Source: Nitrospira sp. (GTDB lineage: Bacteria; Nitrospirota; Nitrospiria; Nitrospirales; Nitrospiraceae). From it: a stretch of 42,034 bases of DNA. The DNA lies in contig JABMDK010000017.1 in the NCBI GenBank assembly GCA_015903995.1, positions 293,052 to 335,085 of the forward strand. Direction: 5' to 3'. The notes under the pieces were generated by a model. That model worked only from the letters and a program-made list of their open reading frames with translations. It did no database searches and was not told where the DNA came from. Below, piece by piece: positions 1-42,034 of the stretch. Both the position numbers and the translations under genes were made by a program. Positions within the stretch are counted from its first letter, which is position 1. Each line of letters begins with the position of its first letter.

Positions 1-190
1 AGTCCGCCAGCGGCGTTCTCGCCTCGCTCAGAGGCTCAACGTACGGCCCAGAGTACGATTCGCCTCTTCGCTCGCTGCGGCCTTGCTGGACGGCCTTTTG
101 CGTATCCTGCGTGGCTGTTCAGCGTTCTCCTAAACCTCGATTTCTATGACGGCTATAGAGGTCACAATGAGTTTTTCCGCAGCCTGCTAG
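1..190. repeat. MITE-like repeat, copy 1 (left end outside window)
   Basis: This stretch matches 41324-41513 at about 88% identity by eye, in the same orientation. It ends with a run of T followed by CCGCAGCCTG and CTAG, the counterpart of the right end of the complete copy. The left inverted end lies before position 1, so only the interior and right end are seen here. The interior is rich in self-complementary stretches (CCAGC near 8 against GCTGG near 90; GAGGC against GCCTC), so it could fold into hairpins. It sits downstream of the alanine racemase gene, whose stop is at 253. No coding potential is evident. Confidence 0.8.
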
Positions 191-9125: not shown

Positions 9126-10206
9126 GGGCTCCTTTGTTCGATGCTACGTGGAAATTAGCGATCAGAAATTGAAATCCAGATTTCGTTGCCGGGAAGGGGT
9201 ATTCTAACAGAGATGTTTCAATGAAGAAAAGATCAGGTTTCACACTCAAGATTTATCAGACGAGAACCTGTGAGCGAATCTAACCCAGCAAGTGCGTGCT
9301 GATCTGAGAATGTCAGGCCACGGTACGATGTTTGTCCCTGTTACGGGGCGTTGTAAAATTCGCGTAAGGAGCACCGTTGGCTTCATACATATGGGATACG
9401 GATTCTATTTGCAGGGAGAAGGTCTACTGTGCGTGGGCCATACCGTATCTATAAGCAGGTCAAAATGCACGATACAAGATTTGACCCCCTTTACATATAG
9501 GCCAAAGCCCACCGCCATTGACCGCTGAGCGAGGCGAAGCGGGCTAGGAACCGCACGAAGTTGAAGGTTCGCGCAAAGGTCGAACATGCGCTCTTGGTAA
9601 TCAATCGCGTCTTCGGGTGGACCAAGGTCCGCTATCGGGGGCTGGTAAAGAGCAACTCACTAAGTGAGGGTATACAGATACCAAAGCCTTTCCTCGTTGC
9701 TGCTTTCCGCTACAGCGATTATTGGTGGTTTGAATCCTTTTTCCACAGAACGGCTCCTAACCAATGGGGGATCCACTCTGGCAAAAGCTCTTACTGGAAG
9801 GCCTGAACGATTGAGGACTAAGCAGGAGGGTGTCTCTTGTGGCATCTACCATGCTGATTTACAAGGCTTCATAGGGGTTCGTAACATAGTTGTCTTGGAC
9901 GATATCGACGTTTGATCTTGTGTTCGAGGTGTGAGTCATTCAGGACACACTAAATGAAGGCAGGCGGCATGAGAATTGATGGCTATCATACTTGTACGGA
10001 GAGGAGCCCGTTTTTGAGCATTGAGTCCATAGGGGGATGGTCAATGGGTGTTTCGAGCTGTGTGATGATAGCTGAATGGGTAGGAATGATAATGGTGTGA
10101 TAACAAAATATATGTATTTCACGAATAGAATTGAGGTGAGGGGGTTGGATCGGAGATTTGCAGAGGTGCGAGGCGGTTCGTTTGTGTTTAAGCGATTGTT
10201 GTCGGG
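9126..10206. other. Decayed, gene-poor stretch
   Basis: About 1.1 kb with no intact gene. It is lower in GC than its surroundings, especially toward 10080-10240. The only recognisable coding trace is an IS5 transposase scrap at 9525-9653. Several open frames of 60-83 codons occur on both strands (for example 9664-9915), but none has a ribosome site, family motif or consistent codon use, so I treat them as chance. Together with the broken gene and second transposase downstream, it looks like a spot that has taken insertions and is degrading. Confidence 0.6.
9525..9653 (+). mobile_element. IS5-group transposase C-terminal fragment
   Basis: A 43-codon piece in frame from the CTG at 9525 shows the IS5 transposase C-terminal motif: RARNRTKLKVRAKVEHALLV, then NRVFGWTKVRYRGLVK. 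In intact enzymes this segment includes part of the DDE catalytic domain and continues for about 20 residues after GLVK; here similarity stops abruptly at 9653. A stop codon lies just upstream (9519-9521), and nothing of the N-terminal half is visible. It is a dead fragment. Confidence 0.8.
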
Positions 10207-41304: not shown

Positions 41305-41513
41305 TTAGCAGGATGCGGAAAAAGACTGCCAGCGGCGTTCTCGCCTCACTCAGAGGCTCAACGTACAGCCCAGAGTACGCTTCGCCTCTTCGCTTGCTGC
41401 GGCCTTGCTGGACGGCCTTTTTGCGCATCCTGCGTGGTCGTTCAGCGTCGTCCTAAATCTCGATCTTTGCGACGGCTACAGAGGTCTCAGTAAGTTTTTC
41501 CGCAACCTGTTAG
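41305..41513. repeat. MITE-like element, copy 2 (complete)
   Basis: A 201-bp element at 41309-41509 is flanked by TTAG on both sides (41305-41308 and 41510-41513). The left end CAGGATGCGGAAAAA and the reverse complement of the right end CAGGTTGCGGAAAAA match at 14 of 15 positions, giving terminal inverted repeats; similarity extends into the flanks. The 4-bp direct flank fits YTAR, the target duplicated by IS5-group transposases. It has no open frame of note and a GC-rich self-complementary interior. It fills the whole space between the outer-membrane gene's stop and the slp ribosome site. Confidence 0.8.
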
Positions 41514-42034
41514 AAGTGATACGACAGCCCACCAAGGAGAAGCTGTGCCCTGTAGTTGCCGCTAAAGCCACCTAACTCACCAAAGGCTTGATCAAATTTC
41601 AGTGTCGCTCCAGTATGCTTATACTCACCAAAGACGGCGATTTTTGGTGTGATGAATGCACGTAACCCCACCAATACATTCCAGGCGACTGCCACATCCG
41701 TATCGCTTCGGACGGTCGTGGTATCTCCGATGTTCGCGATGGCTGCCCCAACACCAGCCCCCACATATGGCTGAAGTGTGCGGCCTGGATAGCGGGCAAT
41801 GAAGTTAACACCGACCGTAGTCAGTCGAAAATGGATGCCGGGAACTTCATCCAGTGTTGCGGTGCGAGGCAAGCTCTTGACATGAGGGTTTGTGTGCAAG
41901 ACCTCCGCTTCGATCCCGTACCAACTGTGGCCGTGGAAATAGCCTACTTTGCCACCATAACTGATCGAATTTTGGAGATCAAAGTCTTCGAAAGGACCTG
42001 CCGCGCCAACCAGCGGACCTGTTCCTGCAATGCT
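41510..42034 (-). CDS. Outer-membrane beta-barrel protein (N-terminus outside window)
   Basis: At least 174 residues, open to the window edge, so the start lies beyond 42034. It shows alternating amphipathic strands: ISYGGKVGYFHGHSWYGIEA, TLQPYVGAGVGAAIANIG, AVAWNVLVGLRAFITPKIAV, FGEYKHTGATLKF and AQLLLGGLSYHF. The last residue is Phe, with aromatic spacing typical of the BAM recognition signal. It fits the OmpA-like/opacity family of 8-stranded barrels. Its TAA stop (41510-41512) lies within the TTAG flank of the MITE-like element. Confidence 0.8.
   Translation of the reverse strand, partial: SIAGTGPLVGAAGPFEDFDLQNSISYGGKVGYFHGHSWYGIEAEVLHTNPHVKSLPRTATLDEVPGIHFRLTTVGVNFIARYPGRTLQPYVGAGVGAAIANIGDTTTVRSDTDVAVAWNVLVGLRAFITPKIAVFGEYKHTGATLKFDQAFGELGGFSGNYRAQLLLGGLSYHF

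Follow-up and report, generated by a model that had tools for sequence, protein, structure and literature searches.

The window analysed here, a stretch of 42,034 nucleotides from a Nitrospira sp. metagenome-assembled genome (MAG), holds close to its right edge a short non-coding segment that raises two questions: is it a mobile element, and if so, which enzyme moves it? An initial annotation of the letters alone described it as a 201-bp MITE-like element with inverted ends of about 20 bp and TTAG on both sides, and proposed that an IS5-type enzyme mobilises it. The proposal has a basis in known biology, as members of the IS5 family duplicate a YTAR target (PMC10359306).

The element and its internal anatomy

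The segment at 41305-41513 consists of TTAG, 201 bp and TTAG again, and its features are collected in Table 1. The imperfect inverted ends of about 20 bp (CAGGATGCGGAAAAA / TTTTTCCGCAACCTG) contain an 18-nt inverted repeat that is 89% complementary, in agreement with the initial annotation. The absence of coding capacity and the structured interior described there also hold: the element encodes nothing of note, the open reading frames that cross it enter from the flanks, and it folds more strongly than shuffled sequences (z of -6.5 as RNA and -3.2 as DNA). On the minus strand, an outer-membrane-protein ORF (41510-42034) ends in a TAA stop codon that lies within the right TTAG, and the duplication of the target tetranucleotide leaves this stop intact. 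Just past the right end of the window lies a second outer-membrane-protein region (L289:2736-3388), a tandem paralogue (71% to this ORF and 78% to the stretch upstream). The second copy that had been noticed at the left edge of the window is real; its right end is intact (CCTG followed by CTAG), and its left end is lost to an assembly gap, the contig reading N just upstream of the window.

Table 1 Features of the MITE and of its second copy in the window.
Feature	Position	Strand	Remark
Left target-site copy TTAG (YTAR)	41305..41308	.	16 orthologous junctions hold a single YTAR here
201-bp MITE	41309..41509	+	
Left terminal inverted repeat CAGGATGCGGAAAAAGACTG	41309..41328	+	column conservation 0.97
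Conserved core interior with AGAGGC/GCCTCT and CGTAC/GTACG stems	41329..41416	+	column conservation 0.92-0.96, weak covariation
Internal third end copy CTTTTTGCGCATCCTGC	41417..41433	-	
Variable tail, near-constant length in the common 207-210-bp form	41434..41490	+	column conservation 0.63
Right terminal inverted repeat AGTTTTTCCGCAACCTG	41491..41509	-	
Right target-site copy TTAG	41510..41513	.	
Second MITE copy, right flank CTAG	1..190	+	C55:293057-293241

Conservation is uneven along the element. In an alignment of 64 elements from several genera, conservation across genera is 92-97% over the left 129 bp, falls to 63% over the following 57 bp and reaches 94% at the right end. Forms of 131-132 bp in other genomes end at the internal third copy and have YTAR on both sides, so this third end can probably function as a transposon end. 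Neither the third end nor the stop codon at the target had been noted in the initial annotation. The two outer ends also differ in a nearly constant way: their fifth bases (columns 9 and 224 of alignment A1) are unpaired in 63 of the 64 elements, with A at the left end and C or T at the right end read inwards; this fixed difference could serve to mark orientation.

Longer forms can be found as well. Three copies (L023:1500-1807, L034:1497-1784 and L054:1497-1771) measure 275-308 bp because parts of the element are directly duplicated inside them, and these may be real rearrangements or assembly errors. In other species, longer forms carry extra GC-rich modules in the core, e.g., CAAGAGCCTGTCTTGGCAGGCTCGGGGTGGGCGGGTAAGAA (L114:414-733, L125:5304-5588, L140:6494-6814 and L156:2013-2331), and these modules resemble other repeats that have become nested in the MITE.

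Target-site duplication and empty sites

Among 100 distinct elements, the flanks are CTAG/CTAG in 55, CTAA/CTAA in 17, TTAG/TTAG in 13 and unequal in 15, which gives identical 4-bp flanks in 85. Since these loci were preselected for YTAR on both sides, the informative number is the orientation of the flanks. Where the tetranucleotide is asymmetric (CTAA or TTAG), the two copies are direct in each of the 30 pairs and never inverted, and therefore represent a duplication and not a longer inverted end. This bears on the idea that the repeat belongs to the REP/BIME type and depends on a Y1 (RAYT) transposase for its movement, in which case YTAR would be part of the inverted end. Such elements share with ours the end hairpins preceded by a tetranucleotide, the high copy number and the frequent location at gene ends. 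However, the inverted tetranucleotide is found in 0 of 30 elements, the empty site holds a single YTAR, and DDE transposases are encoded by insertion sequences that share these ends, which together make the REP/BIME reading extremely unlikely.

The empty sites themselves can be read in relatives. With the left flank as a query, 52 of the 79 genomes of the genus match, and at all 19 of the orthologous loci fetched from other Nitrospira genomes the flanks are contiguous and the element is absent. Each of the 16 readable junctions holds one YTAR (CTAG in 11, CTAA in 3, TTAG in 1 and TTAA in 1). A second empty site comes from another host copy, L005 (C102, CTAA flanks), which is absent in the close relative L326; there, the empty site (CTAAGACATC) reads CTTCC CTAA GACATC where the host has CTAA, the element, and then CTAA GACATC. 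This second comparison rests on one relative, the others being too diverged beyond the stop codon to judge.

On a different account, the segment would have been kept at orthologous positions as a conserved RNA structure or as a fixed element of regulation, such as an attenuator or terminator. In favour of this account are the strong fold relative to shuffles, the core columns at 92-97% conservation and, in the AGAGGC/GCCTCT stem, a few compensatory changes. Yet the element is absent from 19 of 19 orthologous loci and is therefore not an RNA conserved in position. Further, the element matches no Rfam family, the covariation term of RNAalifold is close to zero, and a simple scan of the element found no promoter and no terminator-like site. 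The slight covariation is compatible with recent common descent of the copies and equally with structural constraint. As an explanation of the element's presence the structural-RNA account is refuted, and as a whole it is very unlikely; a function may have been acquired later.

Copy number and distribution

The 3.55-Mb host genome has at least 45 places that match the element by BLAST, a lower bound taken from a scored subset of candidates. Searching for YTAR followed by the end CAGGNTGCGGAAAAA with at most one mismatch gives 99 sites in the same genome and none in the reversed control. Beyond the host, 167 of 175 Nitrospiraceae genomes and 21 of 22 genera match the MITE, and almost every named match to the core comes from Nitrospira or Nitrospiraceae. 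Collections of plasmid, phage and viral sequences returned no match to the MITE. The element is also present on contigs filed as Planctomycetaceae, Opitutaceae and Nitrosospira (L132, L207 and L184, respectively), which may reflect misbinning or transfer.

The element thus has the attributes of a MITE: it is short, lacks a transposase, and has terminal inverted repeats, a target duplication with an empty site and many dispersed copies. An autonomous counterpart that shares its ends and target also exists, though outside the host MAG. Neither of the findings that would have refuted the initial reading appeared: the copies show consistent inverted ends and direct 4-bp YTAR flanks, and the repeat is missing from the orthologous positions. 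The element represents a genuine MITE family of Nitrospiraceae.

Full-length elements that share the MITE ends

Clues to the mobilising enzyme come from other Nitrospiraceae, where insertion sequences (ISs) of 1.32 kb that carry CAGGCTGCGGAAAAAC at either end and are flanked by YTAR were found (L258, L260, L261 and L263-L269), the route to this clade being a relative of one host PF01609 transposase. The transposases in L260, L261 and L263-L269 are 83-89% identical to the L257 query; some frames are broken and several are open (e.g., G037, G088, G118 and G153). The flanks are CTAG/CTAG in several copies, CTAA/CTAA in L261 and TTAG/TTAG in L266, with unequal YTAR in L263, L267 and L268. With DUF772 and DDE_Tnp_1 as its Pfam domains, the transposase scores 282.5 bits against the NCBIfam IS5-family model NF033581 (cut-off 140) and 200.9 bits against the IS1182 model (cut-off 270). 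By these profile cut-offs it is classed as IS5 family with IS1182 similarity.

Counting YTAR, the ends of MITE copies other than the one in the window share up to 26-27 nt with the ends of the IS. The MITE interior has no similarity to the IS beyond the ends, so the MITE did not arise from the IS by simple internal deletion. MITE matches and 1.32-kb ISs co-occur in the same genomes (e.g., G017, G035, G088 and G118). The full-length partners thus have the same ends and target, occur in the same bacterial family and often reside in the same genome. The end sequence also tracks the enzyme. Sister transposase clades carry other ends (CAGGNTGTTGAAAAA and CAGNNTGTTGACAAA), and in a tree of 20 transposases each of the three end types lies on one side of a supported branch, so that end type follows clade; a fourth end type, CAGTCTGCTGAAAAA, is not represented in this tree.

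A source of transposase within the host genome was also considered. A matching-clade transposase was not found in the host MAG, which is 90% complete. None of the host PF01609 transposases lies between MITE ends; L208 has GGAAGGTCTGATT, and L215 and L229 have CAGGCTGTTGACAAA on the left only. For example, L229 (G000 C46, from 1422 onward) carries an intact 405-aa frame of a sister transposase clade with the left end CAGGCTGTTGACAAA and CTAG; its right end was not found, and its relatives carry both ends. IS701-type transposases (PF13546) occur in 7 of 175 genomes only and in none of the host's sequence. Two host segments of 2.1-2.2 kb bounded by partial MITEs (L061:1577-3707 and L062:1559-3788) were rejected as mobilisers, as they hold ordinary genes and no transposase. 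Named by eye from their translations, these genes are a MATE-like transporter, a carbonic-anhydrase-like gene and a MurJ-like start, and the arrangement may reflect composite mobilisation, deletion or an assembly join.

The remaining host candidate relates to a feature noted in the initial annotation, an IS5-group transposase scrap at 9525-9653 of the window. The window at 9525-9662 reads LSEAKRARNRTKLKVRAKVEHALLVINRVFGWTKVRYRGLVKSNSL and resembles the transposase of L208, which is IS5 but of another clade. An L208-type element as the mobiliser would have several points in its favour, as it belongs to the IS5 family with a score above the NF033581 cut-off, is present in the host genome and has YTAA-type flanks. 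However, its ends begin GGAAGGTCTGATT, unlike CAGGATGCGGAAAAA, and in the related set end type follows transposase clade. It is most improbable that this element mobilises the MITE, and the scrap belongs to a different IS5 element from the one sought.

The proposed role of an IS5-type enzyme fares much better, as full-length ISs share the ends, the YTAR target and an IS5-family transposase. In the mechanism we favour, a related full-length IS would supply an IS5-family DDE transposase, which would bind the two ends of the MITE and excise or copy it; the MITE would then insert at a YTAR tetranucleotide that is duplicated on repair. We infer from sequence comparison that the matching transposase acts on the MITE, that strand transfer follows this route and that it acted in the host lineage. 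With high confidence, then, the MITE family appears to be mobilised in trans by the IS5-type transposase of a related full-length IS.

Relation to known elements

The 1.32-kb IS resembles the IS5 family (E. coli IS5 group) in its NF033581 DDE transposase, its length (about 1.2-1.3 kb) and its YTAR duplication. IS5 ends are of the GGAAGG type, whereas those of the 1.32-kb IS are CAGGCTGCGGAAAAAC. Similarity to the IS1182 family extends over much of the transposase, and the paralogous clade of L215 and L229 scores best with the IS1182 model, but the transposase of the 1.32-kb IS itself falls below that cut-off (200.9 of 270). In the IS1182 family, ISPse1 is 1653 bp long with 16/16 IR and a 4-bp DR (PMC3281130), and IS1272 uses stem-loop replacement (PMC5678879), in contrast to the canonical 4-bp duplication seen here. 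Bacterial MITEs such as MITEAba12 (PMC6382973) are likewise short and non-coding, with inverted ends and a spread across one bacterial family; our MITE differs in host (Nitrospiraceae) and sequence. A search of the open-access literature, a weak test, found no description of a Nitrospira MITE. The kind of mobile element is ordinary and the family apparently undescribed.

Insertion at stop codons and implications

The position of the element at a stop codon is not peculiar to this locus. Flanking sequence was long enough to assess 90 elements; in 32 of these, the TAR of the target forms the stop of an adjoining open frame of 150 codons or more (open frames serving as gene proxies). In comparable DNA, the same holds for 13% of all YTAR sites (binomial p about 7e-8, a value to be taken as a guide, the copies being partly related by descent). 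The simplest cause would be selection against gene disruption. Alternatively, the host may have co-opted the core: the structured 129-bp core would end or stabilise a transcript, and selection would retain copies at stop codons. This second idea is speculative and rather unlikely; if true, it would account for the far stronger conservation of the core than of the tail between genera.

Almost all sequenced Nitrospiraceae, nitrite oxidisers and their relatives, carry this mobile repeat, and it now has a probable source of transposase. It is a clear example of covariation between transposase clade and end sequence, and of overrepresented insertion at stop codons. It accounts for a large class of intergenic repeats in Nitrospiraceae genomes, and may account for some of the contig breaks in them.
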